Positions 42,522 through 63,180 of a DNA stretch of 64,000 nt are shown here, piece by piece; the stretch's first letter is position 1; each line of letters begins with the position of its first letter. Position numbers and translations under genes: made by a program. The notes below the pieces were generated by a model. The model was not told the DNA's origin. It saw only the letters and a list, made by a program, of their open reading frames with translations, and did no database searches. Source of the DNA: Bolinopsis microptera (lineage: Eukaryota > Ctenophora > Tentaculata > Lobata > Bolinopsidae). The stretch is from contig NC_087082.1 of NCBI RefSeq assembly GCF_026151205.1, positions 18,011,401-18,075,400 on the forward strand, read 5' to 3'.

Positions 42522-42571
42522 ATGTTGTTTAAGCGTCTTAGTTGAGTTGGTGTTAGCGAATAACTCTTTCC

Positions 42572-43104
42572 AACGCTATGTCAACGAAGCTACTAGTCGC
42601 AAATACAGAGATGCTGTCAGACATAGTGGACTCCCCATCAAAATTGTCGAGAAACCTGGACGGAAACTGAAGGATCTCCTTACAGACTCCAGACCCCTTG
42701 ACAAGAAATCCTGTACAACATCAAACTGCAGAACATGCGCAGCTTTAACCGATGGAGAATGCACCACAACTAATACCGTCTACCACATCACTTGCGAAGT
42801 AGACAATTGTACCGAGAACTATGGTGGGGAAACATACAGACCGATCAAGTGCAGGTTCGACGAGCATTACCGTAGTGCGGCAAATCCAACAGCAAAATCT
42901 TACGAAGATAAGCCACTAGCAAAGCACTACAGGGAAAGTCACCCTCAGCACAAAGGCCCCCCAAAGCTTAAACTTCAAATCGTAGATAGAGGAACATCAC
43001 TCATCAACAGAAAGATTAAAGAAGCCCGATTTTTAGTTGAAAATAAACCGACACTCAACGATAAAACAGAGTTGAACAATCTAACACAGTTTTTAGTTGA
43101 GTGA
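42572..43104 (+). pseudogene. Inverted GIY-YIG fragment of the Penelope-like element
   Basis: From YVNEATSRKYRDAVRHSG to the stop it repeats the last ~175 codons of the minus-strand ORF, with one substitution seen (DKTELNN for DKIELNN). The frame runs upstream into the junction, so the reading start at 42511 is a chimera. Confidence 0.9.
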
Positions 43105-43501
43105 CGTGTAAATAGTAATATTCTCGTTTAATTCTTTTATCTCTTTTAATTTTTTATCTCCTGTATAACGTCACGCTATTCGTTAATTTTCAGATAAGCC
43201 CAATTTTGTCAGTTTTATGTTCATATTTGCTCCGATTTCGTTAAAAACTATTTACGGTTGATAACTATTTTACAGTTATATATTTTGTTTGAAATAAATT
43301 TCGTCGTCAAATTTTTAATGTGAATATTGATCGTTATAATTGAATTAATACTATTTCAGAATATGAGTATGACGTAGAAATGTCGATACGTTATTCAGCT
43401 ATTTATTTCCATTAGAATTTGTCTTCACTGAGTCTATTCAGAAACAATCAGAAATTTGAATAAAAGAACTATCAAATCATGAGACTCAAAAACACTACAC
43501 G

Positions 43502-43844
43502 AAAAATATGATCTATGATTTGAACCTTGCAGTTGCAAGTTGCAATCCCAGTTTATGTTTCACAGAGTCAATGCTCAAGGGTAAATTTGTTCAATGACTC
43601 TCAGACAAGGACTAAGATCAATCTTAGTGTGATATGAGCCAGTAGATGTGTTGCAGATCACTTCCTTCGCGTTTTCGTTCATTAAGACAAGGTCTTCGTT
43701 AATGCACGTGACAACATATTTGTAGTCGTCGGATTCAGCAATTTCAACCTGAAAATAATATCCTTGACTCACTGAGTGTGGATAGAAAATGGACTAATCT
43801 GTAAGTCAAAGTGTAATCAATTCGAGAAGATTAACATATTTATA
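43502..43844. repeat. 343-bp direct repeat flanking Penelope-like element, copy 2
   Basis: Partner of 39798-40140. It is contiguous on its high-coordinate side with the remaining introns and exons of the Ig-repeat gene, so this is the copy in its original setting. Confidence 0.9.
43575..43748 (-). CDS. Ig-repeat gene, terminal exon (second half of sushi/CCP domain)
   Basis: Phase 0 start after TTTTCAG at 43748; stop at 43575. VEIAESDDYKYVVTCINEDL, EVICNTSTGS and SPCL supply three of the four CCP cysteines; the first (RCKPP) is in the preceding exon. After the domain only RVIEQIYP remains, so no transmembrane helix or GPI signal is visible at this C-terminus. Confidence 0.75.
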   Translation of the reverse strand, partial: VEIAESDDYKYVVTCINEDLVLMNENAKEVICNTSTGSYHTKIDLSPCLRVIEQIYP

Positions 43845-43903
43845 TTCAAGTTTTAAACTGAGCTTTGTACCTAATATTAGTATTACATCTGTATAAAACT
43901 GAC

Positions 43904-44009
43904 CTTTTTCAAAAGTGTATTCGGAGGCGTACGAGGTGGTTTACAGCGTAGTTTGATCTTTAAGTTCGTCTCGTCAGTACTGAATTCGAATCCAGTCTCC
44001 AACTTGATC
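43904..44009 (-). CDS. Ig-repeat gene, exon with first half of sushi/CCP domain
   Basis: CTATCAG|GATC to AAAAAG|GTCAG. The first base completes an AG-split codon. Encodes IKLETGFEFSTDETNLKIKL, then RCKPPRTPPNTLLKK. C-x-P-P is a typical CCP opening. Confidence 0.7.
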
Positions 44010-44185
44010 CTGATAGTGATATGATGGGCCTTTGAATAAATTCAAAATATAAGTTGCTTGGCAATGGCCTTGACGGCAAAAGAATTAATGAACAAATCAT
44101 GTATAATCAAGACGAAATTTAAAATACGCCGTTGAATGGATCATTCAGGGAATTTCTAAGCTAGCGCAGTTCGAATGACTTAAAC

Positions 44186-44303
44186 CTGAAACTGTAATGA
44201 CCACCGTCACAAAAGTAAACGTCCTCTAAACGATGTGAGATTGTGTAGGGGCCCGATACTGCAGAGAAGTCTGGAAGGGATACTGGAATATTCTTATTCC
44301 CTT
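44186..44303 (-). CDS. Ig-repeat gene, split-domain exon
   Basis: TTTCTCAG|AAG to TTTCAG|GTTTAA. GNKNIPVSLPDFSAVSGPYT, then EDVYFCDGGHYSF, where VYFC fits the F-strand Cys of a divergent Ig fold. Phases (1 in, 2 out) match both neighbours. Confidence 0.7.
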
Positions 44304-44598
44304 CTGAGAAAGATTTCATTATAGTTACAAAACACAATTAACTTTAATTCTGTAAGAAACATATGTACATGAACCGACTGTCTCTAAATTTGTTATGCGT
44401 TATTTTACTTTATTAATATTATCAATTTATTTATAGTGTTGCAGCCAGCCGCAGCTATACTAGGCCTTCTGACTTCTGTTAGTATTCTCGTAGAAGTTCA
44501 AACTGCGGAACCATACGTCCATACAAATTAAATTTCTTAAAAAATACCAATGAATGTGAATTGTAACCGAAAAAGTACAACAAAGTACAATAACAAAC

Positions 44599-44775
44599 CT
44601 TTATAGTGAAGGAATACACTCGATGGCTTTATGTCTCCAAGGACTGACATTGTAAAGAATGCAGTCGACCTTTCAAAAACGGCCTTTACTTTTGAAATTG
44701 TTGCTTGAGCTGACTTAATGCATATCATGTCACATGTTTGCTGTTGACCCGAAAGGAAAATGACTGCTCTGTAGT
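44599..44775 (-). CDS. Ig-repeat gene, split-domain exon
   Basis: TTTCCAG|ACT to AAAG|GTTTG. DYRAVIFLSGQQQTCDMICI, then KVKAVFERSTAFFTMSVLGD. Phase 1-1. Possibly the first half of the domain completed by 44186-44303. Confidence 0.7.
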
Positions 44776-45024
44776 CTGGAAAAATAAAAATAAAATTGAC
44801 AAATTCAAATATAAAAACTCATTTTTTAATTTAATTTTGCATTCTGGGTTAAAACTTTATTAACTTATAAAGATATTTTATTTAATGTTCGATATAATCA
44901 AATAGGTCAAGTGCCTGTGAGCTGTGTAGATACAACGTACATAGTAAACAATAAAATTATACTAATTTAATTATACCTAACATCCTAAAATTAAATTATT
45001 GAAGAACCTATCGCATTTTTATAC

Positions 45025-45162
45025 CTGCAACATCGCTAGAAGTCAATCTCTGAATGAAGAGTTTGGTAGACATCACACCTTTATCATCGATTGGAGAGAT
45101 AAGTGTACGGTACTGCCACTGGTGATCCGATGGAAGACTTTCCCAATTTATTGACCCTCCAT
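45025..45162 (-). CDS. Ig-repeat gene, second half of Ig-like domain
   Basis: CTTCAAG|ATG to TTGCAG|GTATAA. NGGSINWESLPSDHQWQYRT, then GVMSTKLFIQRLTSSDVAG: the L-x-I-x-x-L-x-x-x-D-x-A/G pattern of Ig E-F strands. Confidence 0.75.
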
Positions 45163-45282
45163 CTTGAAGTGATTATTAAAGTTTTTCAGTTTTGATCATT
45201 CAAAAAGTATTATCATTAAAAAATTACTAACATGTAACTACGAACATAATTACTAATGTTGACTTAGATAACGCTTATTTAC

Positions 45283-45396
45283 TTCTTTTCTGCCATGTGA
45301 TCCTGACGTCGGATAAGTCTCTGGCAGTGAAATAAGTTGTCAAAATGGCTGGTCGTCCCACTGTTGCCAAAACTGGTGTTATGACAACTGCTTCAC
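45283..45396 (-). CDS. Ig-repeat gene, first half of Ig-like domain
   Basis: CGTTTAG|GTGAAG to AAGAA|GTAAAT. EAVVITPVLATVGRPAILTT, then RDLSDVRITWQKR, the A-C strands with the conserved Trp. Confidence 0.7.
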
Positions 45397-45726
45397 CTAA
45401 ACGACGAGAAAGTTTACAAATGATATCCCAGAAAAAAGACATATATAAATATCAGTATTACTCGAATTCCTTTATATTGTATCAATTATGATAGTATTCA
45501 TAATATTATTAATCATGCAAATCAATATATTATTTATTTCGTTATTCGAATCTTTCTTTGATTATGGAACACAATATTGCAGGGAAATAATCGGAGACCG
45601 ATCGTGAAAGTGTAGAAAATTAAATTATTGATGGAAATATCGAGTGGGAATCATTTTGAGGGCGTTGTGTCATTTTCCAAAGCATTAGGTAGAAAAGTTC
45701 AAAATAGTGTAGTGCTGTAGGAACAC

Positions 45727-45875
45727 AGAAATACTTGCCGAGCAACGAAAATTTCACTGTAACTGTAAGAGATTCTTGGACTGAATTCTGAATCCGAACT
45801 GAGTAATCACAAGTACCATGTTGTGAAACTAAATCATCTTTTGAGCGGGAGCCTCCTTCTATCATAGAATCAGAA
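45727..45875 (-). CDS. Ig-repeat gene, exon ending in YFC
   Basis: TTCAG|TTCTG to TTTCT|GTGTTC. SDSMIEGGSRSKDDLVSQHG, TCDYSVRIQNSVQESLTVTV, KFSLLGKYF plus Cys completed by the next exon. The donor at 45727 is weak but keeps phase 1 and restores the Y-x-C Cys; a donor at 45735 would break the frame. Confidence 0.6.
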
Positions 45876-46098
45876 CTGAAAATAATTGAATCAATGATTT
45901 AATCACCCCTCCTACCCTCCCCCCCCCCCCTTCCCTATAAGATAATTAGGGAGGAATAATGCATCATAACACATACTTCATCAGCCTTAAATCAACTTAG
46001 GTTAATTGTGTCCGTAAAAACGAAAGTAGGATGGAAGCTATTTTGTTTACTGATAAATAATTTTAATCTTAACTTTTACTTTCTAAAGATGTTCTCAC

Positions 46099-46178
46099 CT
46101 GCGAATGTGATAAACTTCGGTGAAGATTAACCCATCGGCTGAGATTTTTGAATCTGTCGATTTACTAACAGAGTTGAC
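46099..46178 (-). CDS. Ig-repeat gene, short exon
   Basis: ATCTCAG|GTC to CGCAG|GTGAGA, 80 bp, phase 0 in and 2 out. VNSVSKSTDSKISADGLIFT. Needed to keep the frame between its neighbours. Confidence 0.65.
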
Positions 46179-46293
46179 CTGAGATATCGATAGTTAGAAT
46201 TCAGTGTTATGTCTAGAACCTACGATCTTCACGAATGGTAGAACAAATGAAGCATGCCAGAAAATTTGTTTGAAATAATTAATTCTCACTCAC

Positions 46294-46454
46294 AAGATCA
46301 AGAGAGCAATCCAAATTCCTTGACAGCGGTGCTGAAGGTGCATGAGTTATGAAAGTCACCAAAGCTCCTGTATCTGGAGTCAGAACTATTAAATCGAGGT
46401 CACTGTCTATCCTTATTTCGTTCAGATGACTCATTGGTGTATTAACGATTTGTC
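46294..46454 (-). CDS. Ig-repeat gene, exon
   Basis: AACCCAG|GAC to GATCTT|GTGAGT. GQIVNTPMSHLNEIRIDSDL, then DTGALVTFITHAP. Phase 1 in, 0 out. Confidence 0.65.
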
Positions 46455-46603
46455 CTGGGTTCGAGAGTTTTTTTTAGTTAACAAAACTTTGAGGTTCTGC
46501 GTAGAGGTCATAAATCTTTAACTGACATGTTTCCACTTTAAAATGCTTTTATTTTTAATGAACTAATTTTAAAGGAAGCCTGTCTGAGAATTTCTTTCTT
46601 TAC

Positions 46604-46785
46604 CTGAGCTGTACTGGGCCCGACAATAAAGATTTCCAACAGCTGCTGTGGAGTGAGCAACTATGATTTTCCACTGGACTTTTGTAGTGCCATAAACTTT
46701 CTCCATCATTTTGAAGATGATAACATCATGGTGCTTATTATAGGTAAAACCTTTATTGTTTACAAACTTGCCATCCAACTTCCAC
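46604..46785 (-). CDS. Ig-repeat gene, second half of Ig-like domain
   Basis: Start set at AAG|GTGG (46785) because it keeps phase 2 and places RWKLDGKFV 12-14 residues after the Cys of the previous exon, the normal B-C strand spacing. It ends STAAVGNLYCRAQYSS and GTAAAG donor. The open frame continues upstream to 47000, but that part is intron in this model. Confidence 0.65.
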
Positions 46786-47013
46786 CTTCGTGTTTTGACA
46801 TTTTTAGTAAACATCGTATTATGATTTACCAGGACATTTAATTTGGATAGAAGTGAAATATAGATATATCTATCATGAAATTCTGGTAACCAGCATGAAA
46901 ACAAGCCACAATGTTTGGTCCATAATTTGTAAATGAGATTATTATGACTCACAAAATATTTTCCAATTAACTCTTCAGGCTGTCTAAGGCCTAAGCTCAT
47001 AGCATAAACTTAC

Positions 47014-47167
47014 CGCAAATTATTCAAAATAGAATTAGTCATGTTAAATGGTACGGAACAGGTGACTTCTGATTCAGTCCCTGAAATGCCCCACACAGAA
47101 TTGGGATATTGAGTCCCACTGACATTCACTCCAATCAAAATCACTTGGTTGCTCTGTAGAATTCGCT
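47014..47167 (-). CDS. Ig-repeat gene, first half of Ig-like domain
   Basis: ATCGCAG|AGC to TTGCG|GTAAGT. RILQSNQVILIGVNVSGTQY, then SGTESEVTCSVPFNM, with the B-strand Cys. Confidence 0.7.
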
Positions 47168-47309
47168 CTGCGATATGTGAGTTGTCAGTGTTATTCACGG
47201 ATATGTAAACAAATGAAAATCTCTATTTTCAGTGAAATAATGTTTATACCATATAATTGCTGCACTCTGCAAAAACAGAATAGTATATAATTGACAAAAT
47301 TAAGCTTAC

Positions 47310-47407
47310 TGCTCGTTGTTTCTGTGTAAAAGGATCTCCAGGCCCCAACTGTAGAGTTGCTTACAATGATGCTGATTACGGAGGTCTTTGGGGTGTTGAT
47401 AATATCC
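47310..47407 (-). CDS. Ig-repeat gene, exon
   Basis: CATAG|GGA to GAGCA|GTAAGC. RDIINTPKTSVISIIVSNST, then VGAWRSFYTETTS. The expected F-strand Cys is replaced (Trp-Arg-Ser), so this domain is divergent. Confidence 0.65.
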
Positions 47408-47527
47408 CTATGAGTAAAACATTTGAACAATGTTTGTAGTTAAATTCAAATCAGTTTATTTGTTATTTGATAGATATGGGTTAAAAACTATTTCAGTACA
47501 GCAAAATCCGCAGTAAAAGAAAAATAC

Positions 47528-47672
47528 CTGCAAGTTTTAGTCAAACACAGAGAGTCATTGTGCTTCCACCAAAAGTGTCCATCAGCAAACGAGAAGAAGA
47601 AATAAGAAGATTTCAGGTTGACTGTTGCTCCGTTGAAAGCTCTTATCTCTTGTTCTGGTGTCAGCGCTAAAC
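47528..47672 (-). CDS. Ig-repeat gene, first half of divergent Ig-like domain
   Basis: CAACAG|GTT to TTGCAG|GTATTT. GLALTPEQEIRAFNGATVNL, then DGHFWWKHNDSLCLTKTC. FWWK gives the conserved Trp; the B-strand Cys is missing. Confidence 0.7.
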
Positions 47673-48049
47673 CTGTTGGTGGATGCTATTACATATATTG
47701 AAACTCTTGAGATGATCACACAATGTGCACTACCTAGTCGGTTTTAAAATTTACGGTCACAATAAAAAATAAACGCGCTCACGAACGAAGAGTGCATAAA
47801 TTTTATCATGCATATTCATAGCTCACAATTTAAACCGTTCAGAATCAGATAATTTTCAATGAAATATTCTTTATACTCTTACTTGTCAAATAAATCGTTT
47901 TTGAAATCGATAGTGAATACAACCGACTTATTTAAATCATTCTACGCCTCGACTGAGTCTAATAACAAAAAAAGGATGCAATGTCTCTTTGATTTGTAAT
48001 CTTGTTTCGAAATTAGGATGAAATATTATAATCTGTTGATTTAGATTAC

Positions 48050-48196
48050 CATCGGTTTCTATTTTAACTTCCGAGTAAAAGTTATACTCTTGACCATGGG
48101 CGAAGACTATGCAAGTGTAAGAAGCAACTTCGTTGGGAGGGTCTAATCGTAAAATTGTTGTTGTTGTACTATTTTGTAAGGTTTCTTTTCTTGTCT
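48050..48196 (-). CDS. Ig-repeat gene, second half of Ig-like domain
   Basis: TTGCAG|AGA to GATG|GTAATC. ETRKETLQNSTTTTILRLDP, then NEVASYTCIVFAHG: the canonical D/E-x-x-x-Y-x-C. Confidence 0.8.
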
Positions 48197-48319
48197 CTGC
48201 AAAAAAAGTTAAAATGTTATATACGATATAATATTGATATCAATATTTACATAAGGGGGCACCAATGACCAAGCTCAAAGTAGTATTTCATAGAGTTACA
48301 CAAAAACTTGGAATTTAAC

Positions 48320-48432
48320 CTTCAAATATAGTATTTTGGTGTGACCAAGCAACTATCAATGTGTCGGTAGGAAAGATCACAGTACACTTCAATACTGCTG
48401 GGTCTCCTGTTCTAACAAAATCATCGGTTGTA
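48320..48432 (-). CDS. Ig-repeat gene, first half of Ig-like domain
   Basis: TTTCAG|TAC to GAAG|GTTAA. TTDDFVRTGDPAVLKCTVIF, then LIVAWSHQNTIFEG, with B-strand Cys and C-strand Trp. Confidence 0.8.
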
Positions 48433-48616
48433 CTGAAATAAGAAGTTGAATTAAATGGAAATTTAGGAAAATTGGAGTAGTTCAAAATTTAATACAACGA
48501 TATGAATATGATTGGTTGAATGGAGATTTCGGTTTAAGAAGGTATTATTTAATTCTACGAATTCTTTTATTTGCGCAATATTAAATAAGATTTTTGAACT
48601 ACATTATTAAACGTAC

Positions 48617-48772
48617 CGAACTGTGAAGGTCTTCAGAAGCACCGAGGTATCATCATATTGATCTTTTTCTCCTACTGAAATCCTACATGTGAATAGTTGA
48701 TCGCCTAACAAAGTCACGTCAGCTAAAAGGATCATAGTCGACTCCTTCATCCCATCCATTAGTGCTCCATCA
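48617..48772 (-). CDS. Ig-repeat gene, second half of Ig-like domain
   Basis: GATCAG|TGA to TTCG|GTACG. DGALMDGMKESTMILLADVT, then LLGDQLFTCRISVGEK. The F-strand FTC is present. Confidence 0.8.
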
Positions 48773-48917
48773 CTGATCAATTGAAGGAGTAAGTAATCCA
48801 ACAACATCTACATTTTGCAACAAATTATAAAATAGCGATACATCATATATTTGTATTAGGATCTCAAATCTTCTATCATTTCAATTATCTGTATATTCCA
48901 GTAATATAAAAGATTAC

Positions 48918-49074
48918 CTGACAGTCAAGTCAGAAATGTCTGAATCATGAGAGAAAAGTGTTCCTTTGTTGTCCACCCACTGAATATGTATCAGATTGGC
49001 AGCTGATCCTTTTATTGAACAAGTCAACGTTGATGCAGTACCTGCTAGCACGTCATAGCTTTTCACCCTTATCT
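48918..49074 (-). CDS. Ig-repeat gene, first half of Ig-like domain after the array
   Basis: TTTCAG|AGA to GTCAG|GTAATC. EIRVKSYDVLAGTASTLTCS, then NLIHIQWVDNKG. It accepts the phase 1 end of the last array exon, marking the switch from one-exon to two-exon Ig domains. Confidence 0.8.
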
Positions 49075-49242
49075 CTGAAATTAATACATCCAAATATAAA
49101 ACAATTTGCAGTTACTTAAAATACTACAATTTATGATTTATAATCCACGATGATTTTTTGCTGCAAGATTCCAATACGTCCTTAAATAAATAACTGTATT
49201 GCAAAATGAGTAATGACACTGTTTGGCATTTCAAGAACATAC

Positions 49243-49533
49243 CATAAACGTTTAGATTGACGGTGGTATCCGAGTGGCTGAAATTAGGTAATGAACCGGA
49301 AGTGACTCTGCAAGAGTAGGCAGTATCTTCGTTGACAAGGGTCCCGTCTACAGCAAGAGTTGATGTCTGTCTCCCTCCAGAGTGGCTTCCTTGGACAGGG
49401 GTGAACTTTTCAGCTGGAACTGGTCCCGTACTAGTCCGCCAAGTTACTGTTGCTGTTTCAATAATTCCAGTGATAACACAGGATATCGATGTGCTAGAAC
49501 CTTTCTTTGCTTCTTTGTTAACTGGTTCAACGT
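49243..49533 (-). CDS. Tandem Ig exon 17 (3'-most of the array)
   Basis: 291 bp, phase 1-1. Most divergent array member: KEAKKGSSTSISCVITGIIE, SHSGGRQTST, YSCRVTSGSLPNFSHSD. Cys-Trp-Cys core intact. It contains no Met, so simple ATG-based ORF searches miss it. Confidence 0.88.
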
Positions 49534-49713
49534 CTGAAGTAAGTTTTGGTAAATGTATATTTACAAATTTATAACTCTCGAATAATATAAATATGTTTTT
49601 GTTCTTATAATGACATCAATTGAAAGTTTGTTGTAAGACAAAAAATCGTATGGATACAAAAATTTGCCTTGCAAAATAACTTCACTTTCAGTTATGGAGG
49701 TTAAAGAACATAC

Positions 49714-50004
49714 CATAAACGTTTAGATTGACAGTGGTATCAGAGAAATTGGAATCAGGTAAAGATCCGGAAGTGACTCTGCAAGTGTAGGCAGTATCTT
49801 CGTTGACAAGAGTTCCATCTACGGCAAGAGTTGATGTCTGTGTGCCTGCAAAGTTACTTCCTTGGGTAGGGACGAGCTTATCGCCTGGAACAGGTCCTGT
49901 ACTTGTTCGCCAAGTCACTAGTGCTGTTTCTGTTATGCCAGTGATGATACAAGAAATCGTTGCGTAAGAGCCTTTCTTCACTTCTGTGTTAACTGATTCA
50001 ACGT
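49714..50004 (-). CDS. Tandem Ig exon 16
   Basis: Variant residues: TETALVTWRTSTGPVPGDKL and VPTQGSNFAGTQ. It is separated from exon 17 by an intron of about 180 bp and from exon 15 by about 170 bp. Confidence 0.9.
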
Positions 50005-50174
50005 CTGAAATGAGTTTTGGTACATTTACAAATTCTACAATTTATAACCGACGGATCATGAAATCATTTTCTTGTACTGATGTGAATTGGAATATAGAGG
50101 AAGGATAGAAATTCGTTCATGAATCGAAAAATTGATTGTAAGATTTATACTGCATTAGCGTTTGAAGAACATAC

Positions 50175-50465
50175 CATAAACGTTTAGATTGACAGTGGTA
50201 TCAGAGAAGTTGGAATCAGGTAAAGATCCGAAAGTGACTCTGCAAGTGTAGGCAGTATCTTCGTTGACAAGAGTTCCTTCTACAGCAAGAGTTGATGTCT
50301 GTGTCCCTGCAGAGTTACTTCCTTGGACAGGGGTGAACTTTTCAGCTAAAACTGGTCCTGTACTAGTTCGCCAGGTCACTGCTGCTGTTTCTGTTATGCC
50401 AGTGATGATACAAGAAATCGTTGCGTAAGAGCCTTTCTTCACTTCTGTGTTAACTGATTCAACGT
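50175..50465 (-). CDS. Tandem Ig exon 15
   Basis: Variants: GPVLAEKFTPVQ, AVEGTLVNED, CRVTFGSLPD. Its upstream intron (on the minus strand) holds the 3.2-kb LINE at 50502-53710. Confidence 0.9.
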
Positions 50466-50501
50466 CTGAAATGAGTTTTGGTACATTTACTAATTCCACA
50501 A

Positions 50502-53500
50502 ATAATAATAATAATAACATAATAATAACAAAGTATTTATATCCCGCTCATATTAGCAACTAGTAACCAAGAATGGTACTAGCTACTAATGTCAGAGCGG
50601 CTGTCCAAACAAAGATAAAACTTTAATAATTTAGAATTCTCCAACAAAAAATTCTCAATTTCCTTTAAACCGCTTATTAGTAACACTAACGTCTAAAAAC
50701 TATATTATACGACAGACATGGTGGTACAATCAGACATCAGATGGAATAAACTATAAGAGAAAAATAATAATCTCGACACATAATGGTTACATTTATTTAT
50801 TCAAAAGAATTTAATTAATTGAACTTCATTATACACTCTTCTTTATTTGGAGATCAAAACAACAAACACAAACTGAGGCCTGCATCCCCGTCAATACCAC
50901 ACAATCATTTAATGAGTTGCTCAAGGTAGTAGACCAGGCCGACGGATCCCCAGTCCGATTTCCCTGAGTATTGTCGCACCCAATTAAGGGAACTCGCACA
51001 CTACATCACCCTGTACCCAACAGCTTGCAAGCAAGCTGCCGTTCACCCACCGGTTCACTGAGGTACAGGTAGATTGCCGAAGCATGTGCTACCAACTCTG
51101 CAATCATGTGGTACTGGCCAAAGATACAGGTTTATAAAAATAAAAAATAAAAACAAGCCAGGGCATGGCAAATGGCAGTCTAGTCTCTCCGGACTCCGTG
51201 TAAGTGTAACTATACACACAACTCATGACAGTTAAAAAATCCCATGGAATAATCTACAAACTAAGGCCAGGTTCTAGGAACTTTCTAAAAAAGAACACAA
51301 ATATAAATACGACTAGGTATGTTTATGATTATTGAAAAAATGGGTTTTTAAAGCCCGTTTAAAAGTATCAATGTTGTTAGCTTTTCTTACCGTATACGGT
51401 AGCAAGTTCCAGAGTTTTGGGGCTGCGTTGCTAAACCTCTTATCACCTAGCCTGATTTTACTGGGTCTACTAACCTTAAACCTTAAGTCATCACCAGACA
51501 GTTGCCGTGTTTTAGAATATGCTGCCTGGGAGTCAATCTGAAGAAGTTCAGACAGATATGGTGGTGCTTGGCTGTACATAACCTTATACGCCAGAAGACA
51601 AATCTTGAAACTTATTCGTTCTTCAATGGGGAGAATGTGTGCTTTTTTGTAGTATTCAAGAAGATCTACATCACGGTCATCGATGTTATAGATGAATCGT
51701 ATTCCAGCATTCAGTACAGATTTGAGCTTTTTCAGTGACTTTATCGGTAGGCAAACATACAGTGCATTACAGTAGTCAAGCTTCGATATAACCAGTTGCT
51801 TCACTAGCATAACTTTTAAACTTTCATCAAGATAACATCGTATTCTCTTCAGATTAGTTAATGCCCACATTGACTTCTGTTTAACATTGTTTAGCTGTCT
51901 TTCCATGGTAAGAGCTGGGTCTAGTTTGACTCCTAAACTCTTCCAATTGTCACCGACACATTCTGTTGGCATCACTTCCTACTCCCAAAATTAACAGAAA
52001 TTTGATTCTGTCCAAATTCTCTAAGAACCAAAGGCTTCCCAATGACTAGTAGCTCTGTTTTTGACTCATTAAGTTTCATATAATTTTCAAGCATCCAGGC
52101 CCTTATTTCATCAAGGCAGGCATTGATCTTAATTTTCATTTCACTTAGTTCTCCAGGTATTAGGGGTTCAAAAGAAATGTAGAGCTGCGAGTCATCTGCA
52201 TATTATAGCTGAATACGAATACCATATTTAGCAGCTATCTTCTGAAGTTGTTTAATGTACAGGATGAACAGAATCGGTCCAAGCAAAGATCCCTGAGGCA
52301 CTCCAAAAAGAAGACACATTACATCAGATACCTCCTGACCAACTTTGACATTGAACGATCTTGCATGAAGATAATCCTCAAACCAGCTGTTAGCTTTACC
52401 TGTGATTCCAAAATCAGCTAAGAGTTTTCTGATAAGTATCTTATGATCTATTGTGTCGAAAGCTGCTGAAAGGTCTAGCAGGACCAGTGTCACAATTCTA
52501 CCCTGCTCAATTTCCCCAAGAATGTCATCAGTCATTTTCACTAATAAAGTTTCACAGCTATGTTTTGGTCTATAACCAGACTGAACTGGACAATGAAGAT
52601 TTTCTGCATCCAAGTATTCGTTGAGTTGACTGAGTACGTACTTTTCAAGGATTTTGGACATAACCGGGAGATTTGAAACTGGTCTATAGTTTTTTAGACA
52701 GTCAGGATCTGCTCCATCCTTTTTGAGGGTGGGTCTGACCACTGCTCTCTTAAGATCTGATGGAAACTTAGCAGTTTCAATGGAAAGGTTGACGATGTAG
52801 CAGAGAAATGGTGCTAGTTCTTTAATGCAGTGTTTCAGGAGAAACATGGGTATTGGATCTAAGTCACAGAACTTATTTGACATACTTTTCACCAGGGTTT
52901 CCATCTCGGACACTTCTACTGCTTTAAAAGTCTCTAACTTTGACTCCTTTTTATCACCTCTTGGGTTTTCCTGGGGTTCGGCCGGTACATCACGAAGGTT
53001 TTCAATTGAGGACCGGATGTTTTCCACTTTTCCAGAAAAGAAAGCTTTTAGATCATCTGCAACTTCCTTGGGATTTCCAGATGGCATACTTGTTTGAGAA
53101 TTACCCAACAAGCGATTGACTTTCTTGTAAAGGGATTTAATATCACCTGATGAAGCTGTGATAGAGTTTCTATAACATCCCTTTCTTTTTTCAAACTCCA
53201 TACCCTGAAGTTTATCCCGAAGTCCTACGTACGCTGATTTAAGTCCTTTTCCAGACCTCCAAGCTCTCTTTGCTCTTCTTCTCTTTCTTCTCACTTCTCT
53301 CAGCTCTTCATCAATCCAGGGAGTTTCATTAGCTTTCACTTTCCTGTCCACTCCTGGGCAATGGGTGTCCATAAGGCTCGAAAGAACCTCATTGTACTGT
53401 GTAACAGCTTCGTCTAGTGACCAGTCAAAGTTTCCTTGGCACAGAGATGAGTTCTTCAAACTTTCTCTAAAAATGTTTTTGTCAAGATCTTTAAAATTTC

Positions 53501-53710
53501 GGTAATTGACCTTTTTCCAAATCATCTTGGGTTTCTTACCGCAGTGATACTCCAAATCAAAATGAACCAGAAAGTTGTCGGATAGTTGTTCCTGATTTGG
53601 TCACAGAAACTGGGCCCATTCTGGACCTAAGGTTTTCTGTAGAGAGTATAAGGTCAATTGTACCACCTTGTTCATGCGTTGGTACAATAGGCATGATTTG
53701 ATAAAGGTCA
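50502..53710 (-). mobile_element. CR1/L2-like LINE inserted in the Ig array
   Basis: A minus-strand element bounded by near-identical aattccacaa (50492-50501) and aattctacaa (53711-53720), a candidate 10-bp target duplication of the array intron. It carries the end of the endonuclease domain (GGTIDLILSTENLRSRMGPV near 53640), the RT, and a ~800-bp 3' UTR. The 3' end is a TTATTA-type microsatellite, as in CR1/L2 LINEs that lack poly(A). The 5' end is truncated inside the endonuclease. Confidence 0.85.
51313..53555 (-). pseudogene. LINE reverse transcriptase, disrupted
   Basis: Frame 52203-53555 has VVRPTLKKDGADPDCLKNYR, PVSNLPVMSKILEKYV, LVLLDLSAAFDTIDH (motif A) and VPQGSLLGPILFILYI (motif B). 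A single TAA sits immediately before YADDSQLYISFEP (motif C), which remains readable in frame to about 51978. A +1 shift then leads to frame 51313-51975 (VGDNWKSLGVKLDPALTMER, then LPIEERISFKICLLAYKVMY). So one stop and one frameshift inactivate an otherwise well-preserved ORF. Confidence 0.88.
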
Positions 53711-53853
53711 AATTCTACAATTTATAACCGACGGATCATCAAATCAATTCCTTGTATGCTGATGTAAATTGGAATATGGAGGAAGGATAGAAATTCGTTC
53801 ATGAATCGAAAAATGGATTGCAAAATAACTGCATTAGCGTTTAAAAAACATAC

Positions 53854-54144
53854 CATAAACGTTCAGATTGGCAGTGGTATCAGAGAAGTTGGAATCAGGT
53901 AAAGATCCGGAAGTGACTCTGCAAGTGTAGGCAGTATCTTCGTTGACAAGAGTTCCGTCTACGGCAAGAGTTGATGTCTGTGTCCCTGCAGAGTAACTTC
54001 CTTGGACAGGATTGAACTTTTCAGCTGGTACTGGTCCTGTACTAGTTCGCCAGGTCACTGCTGCTGTTTTTGTTATGCCAGTGATGATACAAGAAATTGT
54101 TGCGTAAGAGCCTTTCTTCACTTCTGTGTCAATTGATTCAACGT
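53854..54144 (-). CDS. Tandem Ig exon 14
   Basis: Variants: GITKTAAVTW, EKFNPVQGSYSAGT, DTTANLNVYG. Its upstream intron carries an extra gaattcgcca insertion (54169-54178). Confidence 0.9.
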
Positions 54145-54322
54145 CTGAAATGAGTTTTGGTACATTTACGAATTCGCCAAATTCTACAATTTATAACCGA
54201 CGGATCATCAAATCAATTCCTTGTAAACTGATGTAAATTGGAATATGGAGGAAGGATAGAAATTCGTTCATGAAGCGAAAAATGGATTGCAAAATAACTG
54301 CATTAGCGTTTAAAGAACATAC

Positions 54323-54613
54323 CATAAACGTTCAGATTGACAGTGGTATCAGAGAAGTTGGAATCAGGTAAAGATCCGGAAGTGACTCTGCAAGTGTAGG
54401 CAGTATCTTCGTTGACGAGAGTTCCGTCTACAGCAAGAGTTGATGTCTGTGTCCCTGCAGAGTTACTTCCTTGGACAGGAGTGTACTTTTCAGCTGGAAC
54501 TGGTCCTGTACTAGTTCGCCAGGTCACTGCTGCTGTTTCTGTTATGCCAGTGATGATACAAGAAATTGTTGCGTAAGAGCCTTTCTTCACTTCTGTGTTA
54601 ACTGATTCAACGT
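54323..54613 (-). CDS. Tandem Ig exon 13
   Basis: Consensus except EKYTPVQ. It is 460 bp from exon 12. Confidence 0.92.
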
Positions 54614-54782
54614 CTGAAATGAGTTTTGGTACATTTACAAATTCTACAATTTATAACCGACGGATCATCAAATCAATTCCTTGTAAACTGATGTAAATTG
54701 GAATATGGAGGAAGGATAGAAATTCGTTCATGAATTGAAAAATGGATTGCAAAATTACTTCATTAGCGTTTAAAGAACATAC

Positions 54783-55073
54783 CATAAACGTTCAGATTGA
54801 CAGTGGTATCAGAGAAGTTGGAATCAGGTAAAGATCCGGAAGTGACTCTGCAAGTGTAAGCAGTATCTTCGTTGACGAGAGTTCCGTCTACAGCAAGAGT
54901 TGATGTCTGTGTCCCTGCAGAGTTACTTCCTTGGACAGGAGTGAACTTTTCAGCTGGAACTGGTCCTGTACTAGTTCGCCAGGTCACTGCTGCTGTTTCT
55001 GTTATGCCAGTGATGATACAAGAAATCGTTGCGTAAGAGCCTTTCTTCACTTCTGTGTTAACTGATTCAACGT
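54783..55073 (-). CDS. Tandem Ig exon 12
   Basis: Encodes the array consensus: KKGSYATISCIITGITETAA, VTWRTSTGPVPAEKFTPVQG, SNSAGTQTSTLAVDGTLVNE, DTAYTCRVTSGSLPDSNFSD, TTVNLNVYG. SCII and YTC provide the disulfide Cys pair and VTW the core Trp. Confidence 0.93.
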
Positions 55074-55250
55074 CTGAAATGAGTTTTGGTACATTTACAA
55101 ATTCTACAATTTATAACCGACAGATCATGAAATCATTTTCTTGTACTGATGTGAATTGGAATATGAAGGAAATAGGAATGATAGAAATTCGTTCATGAAT
55201 CGAAAAATAGATTGTACGATTTATACTGCATTAGCGTTTGAAGAACATAC

Positions 55251-55541
55251 CATAAAGGTTCAGATTGACAGTGGTATCAGAGAAGTTGGAATCAGGTAAA
55301 GATCCGGAAGTGACTCTGCAAGTGTAGGCAGTATCTTCGTTGACGAGAGCTCCGTCTACAGCAAGAGTTGATGTCTGTGTCCCTGCAGAGTTACTTCCTT
55401 GGACAGGAGTGAACTTTTCAGCTGGAACTGGTCCTGTACTAGTTCGCCAGGTCACTGCTGCTGTTTCTGTTATGCCAGTGATGATACAAGAAATTGTTGC
55501 GTAAGAGCCTTTCTTCACTTCTGTGTTAACTGATTCAACGT
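55251..55541 (-). CDS. Tandem Ig exon 11
   Basis: Carries DGALVNED and the NLNLYG end that marks every third exon. Confidence 0.93.
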
Positions 55542-55710
55542 CTGAAATGAGTTTTGGTACATTTACAAATTCTACAATTTATAACCGACGGATCATCAAA
55601 TCAATTCCTTGTAAACTGATGTAAATTGGAATATGGAGGAAGGATAGAAATTCGTTCATGAATTGAAAAATGGATTGCAAAATTACTTCATTAGCGTTTA
55701 AAGAACATAC

Positions 55711-56001
55711 CATAAACGTTCAGATTGACAGTGGTATCAGAGAAGTTGGAATCAGGTAAAGATCCGGAAGTGACTCTGCAAGTGTAAGCAGTATCTTCGT
55801 TGACGAGAGTTCCGTCTACAGCAAGAGTTGATGTCTGTGTCCCTGCAGAGTTACTTCCTTGGACAGGAGTGAACTTTTCAGCTGGAACTGGTCCTGTACT
55901 AGTTCGCCAGGTCACTGCTGCTGTTTCTGTTATGCCAGTGATGATACAAGAAATCGTTGCGTAAGAGCCTTTCTTCACTTCTGTTATAACTGATTCAACG
56001 T
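55711..56001 (-). CDS. Tandem Ig exon 10
   Basis: Consensus body. Its 5' end reads gaagtt->gttataac (TEV to variable) with gaaacgag at the acceptor side, a marker shared with exons 7 and 5. Confidence 0.93.
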
Positions 56002-56178
56002 CTGAAACGAGTTTTGGTACATTTACAAATTCTACAATTTATAACCGACAGATCATGAAATCATTTTCTTGTACTGATGTGAATTGGAATATGGAGGAAA
56101 TAGGAATGATAGAAATTCGTTCATGAATCGAAAAATAGATTTTACGATTTATACTGCATTAGCGTTTGAAGAACATAC

Positions 56179-56469
56179 CATAAACGTTCAGATTGACAGT
56201 GGTATCAGAGAAGTTGGAATCAGGTAAAGATCCGGAAGTGACTCTGCAAGTGTAAGCAGTATCTTCGTTGACGAGAGTTCCGTCTACAGCAAGAGTTGAT
56301 GTCTGTGTCCCTGCAGAGTTACTTCCTTGGACAGGAGTGAACTTTTCAGCTGGAACTGGTCCTGTACTAGTTCGCCAGGTCACTGCTGCTGTTTCTGTTA
56401 TGCCAGTGATGATACAAGAAATCGTTGCGTAAGAGCCTTTCTTCACTTCTGTGTTAACTGATTCAACGT
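56179..56469 (-). CDS. Tandem Ig exon 9
   Basis: Consensus peptide with no substitution relative to exon 12. Confidence 0.93.
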
Positions 56470-56646
56470 CTGAAATGAGTTTTGGTACATTTACAAATTC
56501 TACAATTTATAACCGACAGATCATGAAATCATTTTCTTGTACTGATGTGAATTGGAATATGAAGGAAATAGGAATGATAGAAATTCGTTCATGAATCGAA
56601 AAATAGATTGTACGATTTATACTGCATTAGCGTTTGAAGAACATAC

Positions 56647-56937
56647 CATAAAGGTTCAGATTGACAGTGGTATCAGAGAAGTTGGAATCAGGTAAAGATC
56701 CGGAAGTGACTCTGCAAGTGTAAGCAGTATCTTCGTTGACGAGAGTTCCGTCTACAGCAAGAGTTGATCTCTGTGTCCCTGCAGAGTTACTTCCTTGGAC
56801 AGGAATGAACTTTTCAGCTGGAACTGGTCCTGTACTAGTTCGCCAGGTCACTGCTGCTGTTTCTGTTATGCCAGTGATGATACAAGAAATTGTTGCGTAA
56901 GAGCCTTTCTTCACTTCTGTGTTAACTGATTCAACGT
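56647..56937 (-). CDS. Tandem Ig exon 8
   Basis: EKFIPVQ, GTQRSTLAV and the NLNLYG end. Exactly 1,396 bp from exon 11. Confidence 0.93.
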
Positions 56938-57106
56938 CTGAAATGAGTTTTGGTACATTTACAAATTCTACAATTTATAACCGACGGATCATCAAATCAA
57001 TTCCTTGTAAACTGATGTAAATTGGAATATGGAGGAAGGATAGAAATTCGTTCATGAATTGAAAAATGGATTGCAAAATTACTTCATTAGCGTTTAAAGA
57101 ACATAC

Positions 57107-57397
57107 CATAAACGTTCAGATTGACAGTGGTATCAGAGAAGTTGGAATCAGGTAAAGATCCGGAAGTGACTCTGCAAGTGTAAGCAGTATCTTCGTTGAC
57201 GAGAGTTCCGTCTACAGCAAGAGTTGATCTCTGTGTCCCTGCAGAGTTACTTCCTTGGACAGGAGTGAACTTTTCAGCTGGAACTGGTCCTGTACTAGTT
57301 CGCCAGGTCACTGCTGCTGTTTCTGTTATGCCAGTGATGATACAAGAAATCGTTGCGTAAGAGCCTTTCTTCACTTCTGTTATAACTGATTCAACGT
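57107..57397 (-). CDS. Tandem Ig exon 7
   Basis: GTQRSTLAV variant shared with exons 8 and 6 only. Confidence 0.93.
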
Positions 57398-57574
57398 CTG
57401 AAACGAGTTTTGGTACATTTACAAATTCTACAATTTATAACCGACAGATCATGAAATCATTTTCTTGTACTGATGTGAATTGGAATATGGAGGAAATAGG
57501 AATGATAGAAATTCGTTCATGAATCGAAAAATAGATTTTACGATTTATACTGCATTAGCGTTTGAAGAACATAC

Positions 57575-57865
57575 CATAAACGTTCAGATTGACAGTGGTA
57601 TCAGAGAAGTTGGAATCAGGTAAAGATCCGGAAGTGACTCTGCAAGTGTAAGCAGTATCTTCGTTGACGAGAGTTCCGTCTACAGCAAGAGTTGATCTCT
57701 GTGTCCCTGCAGAGTTACTTCCTTGGACAGGAGTGAACTTTTCAGCTGGAACTGGTCCTGTACTAGTTCGCCAGGTCACTGCTGCTGTTTCTGTTATGCC
57801 AGTGATGATACAAGAAATCGTTGCGTAAGAGCCTTTCTTCACTTCTGTGTTAACTGATTCAACGT
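57575..57865 (-). CDS. Tandem Ig exon 6
   Basis: GTQRSTLAV variant; otherwise consensus. Confidence 0.93.
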
Positions 57866-58042
57866 CTGAAATGAGTTTTGGTACATTTACAAATTCTACA
57901 ATTTATAACCGACAGATCATGAAATCATTTTCTTGTACTGATGTGAATTGGAATATGAAGGAAATAGGAATGATAGAAATTCGTTCATGAATCGAAAAAT
58001 AGATTGTACGATTTATACTGCATTAGCGTTTGAAGAACATAC

Positions 58043-58333
58043 CATAAAGGTTCAGATTGACAGTGGTATCAGAGAAGTTGGAATCAGGTAAAGATCCGGA
58101 AGTGACTCTGCAAGTGTAGGCAGTATCTTCGTTGACGAGAGCTCCGTCTACAGCAAGACTTGATGTCTGTGTCCCTGCAGAGTTACTTCCTTGGACAGGA
58201 GTGAACTTTTCAGCTGGAACTGGTCCTGTACTAGTTCGCCAGGTCACTGCTGCTGTTTCTGTTATGCCAGTGATGATACAAGAAATTGTTGCGTAAGAGC
58301 CTTTCTTCACTTCTGTTATAACTGATTCAACGT
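58043..58333 (-). CDS. Tandem Ig exon 5
   Basis: GTQTSSLAVDGALVNED and NLNLYG end. Exactly 1,396 bp from exon 8. Confidence 0.93.
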
Positions 58334-58502
58334 CTGAAACGAGTTTTGGTACATTTACAAATTCTACAATTTATAACCGACGGATCATCAAATCAATTCC
58401 TTGTAAACTGATGTAAATTGGAATATGGAGGAAGGATAGAAATTCGTTCATGAATTGAAAAATTGATTGCAAAATTACTTCATTAGCGTTTAAAGAACAT
58501 AC

Positions 58503-58793
58503 CATAAACGTTCAGATTGACAGTGGTATCAGAGAAGTTGGAATCAGATAAAGATCCGGAAGTGACTCTGCAAGTGTAAGCAGTATCTTCGTTGACGAGA
58601 GTTCCGTCTACAGCAAGAGTTGATGTCTGTGTCCCTGCAGAGTTACTTCCTTGGACAGGAGTGAACTTTTCAGCTGGAACTGGTCCTGTACTAGTTCGCC
58701 AGGTCACTGCTGCTGTTTCTGTTATGCCAGTGATGATACAAGAAATCGTTGCGTAAGAGCCTTTCTTCACTTCTGTGTTAACTGATTCAACGT
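58503..58793 (-). CDS. Tandem Ig exon 4
   Basis: Single change SGSLSDSN for SGSLPDSN. Confidence 0.93.
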
Positions 58794-58970
58794 CTGAAAT
58801 GAGTTTTGGTACATTTACAAATTCTACAATTTATAACCGACAGATCATGAAATCATTTTCTTGTACTGATGTGAATTGGAATATGGAGGAAATAGGAATG
58901 ATAGAAATTCGTTCATGAATCGAAAAATAGATTTTACGATTTATACTGCATTAGCGTTTGAAGAACATAC

Positions 58971-59261
58971 CATAAACGTTCAGATTGACAGTGGTATCAG
59001 AGAAGTTGGAATCAGGTAAAGATCCGGAAGTGACTCTGCAAGTGTAAGCAGTATCTTCGTTGACGAGAGTTCCGTCTACAGCAAGAGTTGATGTCTGTGT
59101 CCCTGCAGAGTTACTTCCTTGGACAGGAGTGAACTTTTCAGCTGGAACTGGTCCTGTACTAGTTCGCCAGGTCACTGCTGCTGTTTCTGTTATGCCAGTG
59201 ATGATACAAGAAATCGTTGCGTAAGAGCCTTTCTTCACTTCTGTGTTAACTGATTCAACGT
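58971..59261 (-). CDS. Tandem Ig exon 3
   Basis: Consensus peptide, identical to exons 12 and 9. Confidence 0.93.
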
Positions 59262-59438
59262 CTGAAATGAGTTTTGGTACATTTACAAATTCTACAATTT
59301 ATAACCGACAGATCATGAAATCATTTTCTTGTACTGATGTGAATTGGAATATGAAGGAAATAGGAATGATAGAAATTCGTTCATGAATCGAAAAATAGAT
59401 TGTACGATTTATACTGCATTAGCGTTTGAAGAACATAC

Positions 59439-59729
59439 CATAAACGTTCAGATTGACAGTGGTATCAGAGAAGTTGGAATCAGGTAAAGATCCGGAAGTG
59501 ACTCTGCAAGCGTAAGCAGTATCTTCGTTGACGAGAGTTCCGTCTACAGCAAGAGTTGATGTCTGTGTCCCACCAGAGTTACTTCCTTGGACAGGAGTGA
59601 ACTTTTCAGCTGGAACTGGTCCTGTACTAGTTCGCCAGGTCACTGCTGCAGTTTCTGTTATGCCAGTGATGATACACGAAATCGTTGCGTAAGAGCCTTT
59701 CTTCACTTCTGTGTTAACTGATTCAACGT
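59439..59729 (-). CDS. Tandem Ig exon 2
   Basis: SNSGGTQ and DTAYACRV. Exactly 1,396 bp from exon 5, but with the NLNVYG end. Confidence 0.92.
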
Positions 59730-59907
59730 CTGAAGTGAGTTTTGGTACATTTACAAATTCGACAAATTCTACAATTTATAACCGACGGATCATCAAATCA
59801 ATTCCTTTTAAACTGATGTAAATTGGAATATGGAGGAAGGATAGAAATTCGTTCATGTATTGAAAAATGGATTGCAAAATTACTGCATTAGCGTTTAAAG
59901 AACATAC

Positions 59908-60198
59908 CATAAACGTTCAGATTGACAGTGGTATCAGAGAAGTTGGAATCAGGTAAAGATCCGGAAGTGACTCTGCAAGTGTAAGCAGTATCTTCGTTGA
60001 CAAGAGTTCCGTCTACAGCAAGAGTTGATGTCTGTGTCCCTGCAGAGTTACTTCCTTGGACAGGAGTGAACTTTTCAGCTGGAACTGGTCCTGTACTAGT
60101 TCGCCAGGTCACTGTTGCTGTTTCTGTTATGTCAGTGATGATACACGAAATCTTTGCGTAAGAGCCTTTCTTCACTTCTGTGTTAACTGATTCAACGT
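59908..60198 (-). CDS. Tandem Ig exon 1 (5'-most of the array)
   Basis: SYAKISCIITDITETATV variants. Exon runs from CTTCAG|ACG at 60198 (DVESVNTEVKKG) to TTATG|GTATG at 59908. The acceptor-proximal intron differs from the array type, so the array ends here. Confidence 0.92.
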
Positions 60199-60677: not shown

Positions 60678-60777
60678 NNNNNNNNNNNNNNNNNNNNNNN
60701 NNNNNNNNNNNNNNNNNNNNNNNNNNNNNNNNNNNNNNNNNNNNNNNNNNNNNNNNNNNNNNNNNNNNNNNNNNNNN
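60678..60777. other. Assembly gap (100 N)
   Basis: Separates the 5' part of the Ig-repeat gene, and probably downstream exons of the peptidase alpha gene, from the visible sequence. Confidence 0.95.
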
Positions 60778-61049
60778 TCAGAAATATCAGGAATACCTAC
60801 ATGAATAACTGAAAGATAATCATTTATCAGAAAGGCAAGCAATAATCAACTTATAAATGGAATGAATGTCATTATCATTACTTAATACTTTAAAACATTA
60901 TTTAAAGCATATAGATGATGTGATAGATTTGTATTAACAGAATCTATAAAAAGAACAGGTAATATAACGTAGTGATGTGGTAGAATTAGTAACATCATAA
61001 TTAGTAACATCCTAATTAGTAAGCTCCAAAGTTAACCAGCTAGAATTAC

Positions 61050-61297
61050 CTTGCACCCGTTCCCAGAACAACACCCACACTGCACATTCCACCAGACTTC
61101 TGACTTGAAGCCACGTGCAATCCATTGGAAAGCTTAGTTATCTGGGTTGCTTTAGAAAAAGCAGTGTTGATGTCTTCTGGTTTGAGAGATGCTACCCCAG
61201 GAAAAGGCTGGTCTAATGGAGGATGTCCAGTGACGCCTAATCCCCGCGGGATCAGGGAACTGAGAGAGCGGTTGAATACCTTCAAACCAGCTCTCAT
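61050..61297 (-). CDS. PMPCA: Mitochondrial processing peptidase alpha subunit, exon 1
   Basis: From ATG at 61297 to GCAAG|GTAATT at 61050. MRAGLKVFNRSLSSLIPRGL is Arg/Ser-rich without acidic residues, a typical mitochondrial presequence. HPPLDQPFPGVASL, then TKLSNGLHVASSQKSGGMCS, then VGVVLGTGAR match the MPP-alpha start (PL-x-PLPG, T-LDNGLRVAS, C-VG--I-SGSR). The alpha subunit binds presequences for the MPP-beta protease in the matrix. Later exons must lie in or beyond the gap, or left of it among sequence I did not assign. UQCRC core proteins are related alternatives, but the PLxxPxPG element favours MPP-alpha. Confidence 0.8.
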
Positions 61298-63180
61298 ATC
61301 CCTTTTTGAGCTGTTCTTCTAGAATTATCTGCTGGTTTTTATAACATGGTGGCCTGGAGGGTACATATTTAATATTTTATCACAGTATTAGCTTTAAGAG
61401 TAGAAAATGTCTACAATTCTTAAGATATTTTTCACGATAAGAACAGTATACTGTATAAAGTGTTAGTCAAATAAATAGTCATAAATAAATACAAATATTT
61501 GAACATTTGATTTAACAATAGAATACCAATGGGGTCCTGTGAATAGACAAGGTATAGAGCTTCCCGTTTGGGATTCCATTATTGGATTTATCTTAAATGT
61601 TTTCTATTGCATTGGGGCACAAGAGTTATGTTTTTAAAAAAATATTCATATCGTTTTTAGTTGTGTCATTTCATTTCCAATGTTACACTTTGTAGGAACT
61701 GATATTAACCGAGTTTCTGATTCAGGATGTTACTGAAGATAGTAATGAAAATGTTTTAACACCTCAGTACTGTGTTTTACTACAGCTCAACCTGCTCAGT
61801 CTGACTATTTGGGAATTTAAACTCTTGATAGGTATAGAGCTTATGACTGATCACTGAACGATATCATAATTGAAACGGTTATTATAGTCCCTTATCATAT
61901 ATATAGAACAGGAACCTGTCTAACCCTAAAGTGGTGTCAAGACTCAAGAGACTAAAATAATTATTACCTATTTAATTCACGTATTCGACACCACTTGGAG
62001 GTCACAATTTTCGGCACTAAAAGTCTTATTTCTTGCCAAAATTTTTATTATTTCATGCTGATTTGAAGGCCATTAAGGCATTTGACCCAGTCAAAAAAGT
62101 TTAAGTTTTATATCTTTTACGGTTTTTGTGGAACATTGTGTTAAAGTTGATGCCGTGTTGTCAGTAAAATGGTACAGATATACCTATATAATATATTGTC
62201 TCGCTTAATATATAGCAAGATTATACATTAGTTTATCATATTTTATTAATATAGTGAGGTGTAGTATTGCCAGATCCTAATTCAATTTCTAAAGGAGTTT
62301 TATATTGACAGAAAACGATGTAACAGATTCGATATATTTTAATGTTGCCGTAGGGTGGCAAGTCCACATTCAACGAAGTCCGATAGTTTCACTGTACCCT
62401 AATATATAGGTCAGCTGACATGCAGTCATGACAGTCATCAGTCATGTGACTGAGACTCAAAATATCGGACAAATCTCAGGAATATAAAACTAACTTAATA
62501 GCAGTTTTGTCCTTATGGAGTATAGACATATCTGACTTTTAGCTCAATGTTGAGCCATCTAGGCTACTCAAATACCCTAAAAGCCTCAAAATGCAAAAGT
62601 CAAAGGACAAATGTTATCAGTTTATATGGAACAAAACTACCAATATTTTAATGGCTGCTAATGGACCTCTAAGTTAATTTAATAAGTCAAGTACAGACTA
62701 CAGGTTGTTCACGGTGACAAAAGAGGTATTTTAAGGAATCTCAATAACAATCGAGGAATGTTTTTTGTGATAATGGGACATGGCCTATTAATCTCATGAT
62801 CTAAATTTTGAGTTGCAGTCGTACTATCAGTTACCTGGGGATTCAAATCCTAAAACTCTTCTTGCTGAAAACCAAAGTGGACACCATTTTTATTTTCATC
62901 CCAATTAGTTTGTCGATCAGTTACTGTGTCAAATAGAGATTCACAACAATTTCAGGCTGCACTCCCTCCCCCTCTACCTCTATAGAATATTTCAAAATAT
63001 AAAAAATTTTGTGACGAATTGGGAGTATTAAATGACTACTTGTACTATATATTATATGTATAAAATGCATAGTTGTATACAGGCCATTGGATTTATTCCC
63101 CTTGGGCAAAATTTGTATTGTAATTGTTCAAGTAAAAATGTTGCTATCTGCTGCTAACTGCTGCTAACTGCTGTTGCGCG
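61298..63180. other. Intergenic, upstream of MPP-alpha; no gene recognised
   Basis: AT-rich and without convincing exons. The promoter of the peptidase gene should lie just above 61297, but no clear element was identified. Confidence 0.45.

Follow-up and report, generated by a model that had tools for sequence, protein, structure and literature searches.

A 64,000-nucleotide stretch of the genome of the ctenophore Bolinopsis microptera (NCBI RefSeq assembly GCF_026151205.1, contig NC_087082.1, positions 18,011,401 to 18,075,400 of the forward strand; hereafter the window) carries a tandem array of 17 near-identical exons, each encoding one immunoglobulin (Ig) domain. The array is part of a family of predicted secreted multi-Ig genes that probably change length by unequal exchange of multi-exon blocks combined with short gene-conversion tracts, a process that would leave the reading frame safe. 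The published genome of the species comprises 265 Mb in 13 chromosomes (PMC11797021, PMC10232365). Its glutamate-receptor genes, each a single exon, point to a ctenophore near Mnemiopsis: the crystallised Mnemiopsis leidyi receptor ML032222a is matched at 397 bits, against 145 for the best vertebrate receptor, and is the best match of a second gene as well. Searches for mitochondrial cox1 and for GFP gave no matches, and the GFP control found none either. The window's own locus is termed W, and its coordinates are positions within the window on the plus axis; the coding strand is minus, and the gene order of the array runs from high to low coordinate. Sister loci were fetched from chromosome 11 (A, 18.111–18.161 Mb; B, 18.694–18.720; C, 19.008–19.018; G, 20.711–20.747; H, 17.411–17.449), chromosome 13 (D/E, 1.301–1.351), and chromosome 2 (F, 17.434–17.452). 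Exon-level counts and comparisons cover 195 array exons.

The W array occupies positions 49243–60198 and contains 17 exons, not the 12–13 of the initial annotation, with a retroelement inserted in one intron. Each exon is 291 bp long, is preceded by ..TTCAG and followed by GTATGTT, and has GT/AG splice sites and symmetric phase 1-1 boundaries; all 17 are open. Pfam scores for a W Ig exon are 28.4 bits for C1-set (cut-off 21) and 24.0 bits for I-set (cut-off 23.7). The exons fit the Ig superfamily profile, and Cys19, Trp32, and Cys75 are present in 195/195. The AlphaFold model of the exon has a predicted local distance difference test score of 62 and is too weak to choose between the C1 and I subtypes; its top fold matches are nearly all Ig domains (best E=0.014). 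Exon 54783–55073 finds its best hits among C1-set (antibody constant) domains, in Pfam and in PDB sequences alike, and is a candidate for C1 topology.

A higher-order period of three runs through the introns and the exons, as in block-grown domain-repeat genes. Exon starts at 55,251, 56,647, 58,043, and 59,439 are spaced by exactly 1,396 bp with inner spacings of 460-468-468, as first described, and the peptide end NLNLYG occurs at the first three of these positions and is missing at 59,439, in agreement with the three-of-four pattern. The two main intron types, S (169 bp) and L (177 bp), are real, and L divides into L1 and L2, so that each trimer has the make-up exon-S-exon-L1-exon-L2. Trimer 1 (55251–56646) contains exons 55251–55541, 55711–56001, and 56179–56469; trimer 2 (56647–58042; 99.57% identical to trimer 1) contains exons 56647–56937, 57107–57397, and 57575–57865; and trimer 3 (58043–59438; 99.36% identical to trimer 1) contains exons 58043–58333, 58503–58793, and 58971–59261. 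The three full trimers were called correctly, but the preceding block (54323–55250; exons 54323–54613 and 54783–55073) is incomplete, with S and L2 and without the L1 unit. The second of its two units is identical to the third one in trimers 1 and 3. Position 59,439 had been read as the start of a fourth trimer; its intron belongs to another type, and the two 5'-most exons (59439–59729 and 59908–60198) lie outside the pattern. Along the plus axis from 54,323, the introns thus run S, L2, followed by three rounds of S, L1, L2 and, last, an intron of the other type, 178 bp long.

Intron identity follows the register of the blocks. In-register identities are 98.8–100% for the S introns (four units), 99.4–100% for L1, and 100% for the L2 introns (four units). 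The idea that introns are as similar as exons is correct in register but fails out of register, where introns are about 85% identical and exons about 98%. On average, introns are 96.7% identical at lag 3 and 95.5% at lag 6; lags other than multiples of 3 give 86–90%, with values of 88.9% (lag 1), 89.6% (lag 2), and 87.4% (lag 4). A perfect 3x3 period occurs in 28 of the 11,550 possible orders of the 11 core introns (0.0024). A best-lag shuffle test on the whole array, irregular ends included, gave 181/5,000. The three full blocks differ pairwise by 6, 9, and 15 per 1,396 bases (98.9–99.6% identical), and the blocks carry private variants. The earlier proposal of recent duplication is supported.

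Some markers have moved between units. All three exons of trimer 2, alone among the exons of the window, carry a Thr-to-Arg change, and a pair of markers is displaced by one unit in trimer 3. Short conversion tracts seem to have carried these markers between units; short-read mis-polishing could be another source of the marker patterns in trimers 2 and 3. Homogenisation restricted to exons is suggested by an out-of-register synonymous divergence (dS) of 0.018 compared to 0.061 for introns, with few independent changes behind the difference. Block growth as originally proposed is upheld by the (near-)identical in-register introns, by the few differences between the three blocks, and by the different block patterns of sister arrays, but conversion tracts also seem to be involved.

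The sister arrays have block patterns of their own. Array A1 of locus A has three-unit blocks of about 1,407 bp whose private changes differ from those of W, so the two trimers probably arose independently. Array B repeats at lag 4 (2/4 units), array F on chromosome 2 at lags 4 and 6, and array E has no block period. The last W exon (49243–49533) shows 85.1% identity to the interior of its own array; against the last exons of other arrays it reaches 93.9% for A1 and 90.5–90.8% for G and H, as expected if exchange homogenises the middle of an array and spares its ends. Genes G and H have 3' flanks that are 98.6% identical, yet they contain 51 and 39 Ig exons, respectively. About 14 adjoining exons of G share a single H type as their closest counterpart.

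The plan of the genes was read from the gap-free loci and from conservation. Gene G, a gap-free 36-kb locus, opens with a signal-peptide exon (MKITTIILTALLCLPIQGK), continues with 51 full-length Ig exons, all on one strand, and goes on to the first constant exon. Gene H is also gap-free and has the same plan with 39 Ig exons. The exons of both are, as in W, symmetric phase 1-1 units of 291 bp with GT/AG sites, and the frame is kept. Locus A has the same signal-peptide exon, which is closed by a phase-1 donor and precedes the array by about 1.1 kb. This exon has eight close copies, all on chromosome 11. As read in these genomic sequences, the predicted gene plan is a signal-peptide exon followed by N near-identical one-exon Ig domains and then by diverged Ig domains. 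In W the downstream constant region (43578–49080, minus strand) consists of diverged Ig domains, and its exon anatomy was read by conservation. It is 95.6% identical in DNA to locus A over 44.6–49.2 kb and about 75% identical to the chromosome-13 paralogues. The conserved open reading frames (ORFs) are diverged Ig domains, mostly encoded by two half-domain exons each, and the second domain matches Pfam ig. The stop in the last conserved exon (43578–43754) has almost the same position in W, A, and two chromosome-13 copies, and the exon has no hydrophobic tail; the product is predicted to be secreted and to be without a membrane segment. An N-glycosylation sequon is found in 72/105 Ig exon copies.

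Locus A has a more elaborate layout. Upstream of a single constant region it has two arrays, of 18 and 6 exons, and signal-peptide exons at 18,144.9, 18,150.9, and 18,157.0 kb; no second constant region was found between the arrays. The layout could represent alternative 5' cassettes, of the kind known from protocadherin and shortened Dscam (sDscam) genes, or partial duplications. Its three signal-peptide exons before a common constant region do recall the 5' cassettes of sDscam.

A genome search with a 26-base exon word found 339 copies at ≤3 mismatches, against zero in the reversed control, giving at least 339 close exon copies. A protein search gave 776 candidates at first look; the 150 that were scored all lacked stops. 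Arrays are present on at least chromosomes 2, 4, 7, 11, and 13. At C13:996512–1004432 (~8 kb), Ig exons of the family form two adjoining arrays on opposite strands, a palindromic arrangement. All 195 exons have 98 codons, counting the split first codon, and no stop. The ratio of nonsynonymous to synonymous substitution (dN/dS) is 0.17–0.58 between loci, and therefore purifying selection acts on the domains over longer times. Within loci dN/dS is 0.4–0.9 and dS is mostly lower. The nearest neighbour of an exon lies within its own locus in 168/195 cases; thus, each array evolves largely in concert. Interior exon identity is 96.6–98% in four genes. Array length differs greatly between sister genes, at 17 (W), 18 (locus A), 39 (H), and 51 (G) exons. 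According to passages of a published survey, I-set or V-set domains occur in hundreds of genes of ctenophores including Bolinopsis (PMC11797021), and those passages describe no tandem one-exon arrays, block repeats, or gene plan of this kind. A search of the literature on ctenophore Ig arrays found no earlier description of a gene family of the W type.

The following mechanism is the most probable account of these results. Each unit is an intron plus a phase 1-1 exon, and because of this make-up misaligned recombination would gain or lose whole domains with the frame intact. Unequal exchange would shift blocks of two to six exons, three in W, and short gene-conversion tracts would further blur the units. 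Interiors would be homogenised within a gene with the edges spared, and selection would preserve each domain. Several points weigh against this account. The serial splicing of all array exons is predicted from a gene model built on conservation, not on transcripts. The signal-peptide exon of W itself lies behind a gap and is known from the sister loci. A membrane-bound isoform is possible, and the 3' ends were read in loci other than G and H. The within-array dN/dS values indicate that single units are weakly constrained over short times.

The assembly was considered as the source of the repeat pattern. The window has three runs of exactly 100 N, starting at 8,730, 37,871, and 60,678, and the W array lies on a 22.7-kb contig (37,971–60,677) with a run on either side. 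The contig stops 480 bp upstream of the array, which is why W is without a signal-peptide exon; an exon of the MKITTII type is expected beyond the array at the 100-N run directly 5' of it (60678–60777), at about 1.1 kb as in the sister loci, and is absent from the window. The exon count or the trimer pattern might be an artefact of haplotypes that were wrongly joined or left unpurged, or of faulty polishing among near-identical repeats. The published Bolinopsis assembly went through gap closing and haplotig purging and was polished with short reads (PMC10232365), and the block divergence of 0.4–1.1% is within a haplotype-like range. However, the plan with many tandem exons is common to three independent gap-free loci (A, G, and H), the blocks hold private variants, and block sizes differ in other arrays. 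An artefact is therefore unlikely as an explanation of the pattern. An assembly error is possible for the exact exon count of W because its contig is gap-flanked. The W contig is unlikely to be a misplaced haplotype of locus A at 95.6% identity.

Single-exon slippage with gene conversion might have produced the period of three without block duplication. The change shared by all trimer 2 exons and the one-unit marker shift in trimer 3 are conversion-like patterns of the type this would leave. But the order of the three intron types is repeated three times over, as in only 28/11,550 random orders, and in-register introns are identical over 169–177 bp, for which copying of tracts of about 1.4 kb is the simplest explanation. 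Slippage and conversion alone are thus an improbable origin for the trimers. The array might instead be a Dscam-like store of splice variants whose exons are chosen singly, since any subset of symmetric phase 1-1 exons splices in frame. The exons are near-identical, with 98% interior identity and several at 100%, and a choice among them would give almost no variety; we regard this function as improbable. The interior exons of the four genes lack the divergence of a hypervariable Dscam-type array. A muscle giant-protein array of the titin/connectin type is the least credible reading: titin Ig domains are among the weak fold matches, but the sister genes have a signal peptide, sequons are present in 72/105 copies, and connectitin is reported absent from ctenophores (PMC12198301). 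Titin/connectin membership was rejected on the signal-peptide exon of the sisters; the kinase was covered by the Pfam scan of the window ORFs alone.

Growth by block exchange has counterparts in known genes. The kringle IV type 2 array of apolipoprotein(a) (LPA) is likewise made of near-identical tandem intron-exon units with the frame kept, but it encodes kringles with two exons per unit and is one gene in man. LPA array length sets protein size and is polymorphic, and block length variants of complement receptor 1 (CR1) also exist between people. The long homologous repeats of CR1 resemble W in having tandem one-domain units and multi-domain block duplication. They differ in that CR1 is a membrane protein of short consensus repeat (SCR) domains whose duplicated block contains seven SCRs (PMC6883348), whereas W has Ig domains, a three-unit block, and a predicted secreted product. 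Nebulin super-repeats and similar proteins also expand several domains at a time, often in mid-array (PMC1553488), but nebulin is an intracellular muscle protein with mostly seven-domain units. The process itself is already known because a proteome survey reported that domain repeats often expand by several domains at once (PMC1553488). Dscam and sDscam genes share tandem Ig-coding exons or 5' cassettes (PMC4835542), but their alternative exons are diverged, whereas the W family is near-identical and fits serial inclusion.

Several other elements are present in or near the array. A non-LTR (long terminal repeat) reverse-transcriptase element (approximate limits 50510–53710, minus strand; ORF 52203–53600, RVT_1 E=6.8e-21) lies in the intron between array exon 53854–54144, on its 5' side in gene order, and the three 3'-most array exons (49243–49533, 49714–50004, and 50175–50465). 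Exon 53854–54144 has a 178-bp intron of the type that recurs at the opposite end of the repeat block. At 39798–43844 there is a 689-aa retroelement ORF, Penelope-like with a GIY-YIG-like tail by eye, together with a 903-bp inverted partial copy. On both sides of this element lie the copies of a 343-bp direct duplication (99.4%), which takes in the last exon of the Ig gene and so doubles it (39874–40050 and 43578–43754). A 790-aa ORF at 34060–36432 has a YVDD-like reverse-transcriptase motif and no Pfam match up to E=1, and a 52-bp satellite array at 20446–23143 has 52 copies with 95% matches. The minus-strand ORF 61046–61318 resembles the N-terminal exon of the mitochondrial processing peptidase alpha subunit; it has no Pfam match, and further exons were not seen downstream. 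It lies across the 100-N gap from the Ig array, and because of this gap the join may be wrong and the neighbour to the right of the array is not proven to be a true one. Rfam and tRNA (transfer RNA) scans of the window gave no matches.

By analogy, the product may be a long multivalent Ig rod, its length set by N, that acts in extracellular adhesion or structure. A secreted chain of tens of Ig domains, mostly with one sequon each, would suit an adhesive or structural rod, and the close likeness of the domains favours a rod over diversified recognition. An Ig domain is listed among the colloblast candidates of a published tentacle-gene screen (PMC6278862), a lead rather than a link to the array genes. 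A bolder and rather doubtful idea is that ctenophores possess a secreted Ig-array family of their own, in which signal-peptide cassettes and arrays of 6–51 exons feed a shared constant region, and promoter choice and fast length change give personal Ig rods for adhesion or self-recognition. Array length seems to change fast in the evolution of these secreted Ig rods. Sister genes that have equal ends and hold 17–51 intact repeats preserve a clean natural record of the lengthening of domain-repeat proteins, from which block size, conversion tracts, and protected edge exons can be read. Should individuals differ in array length, this length would serve as a simple marker of how fast proteins can change in size in an early animal lineage.

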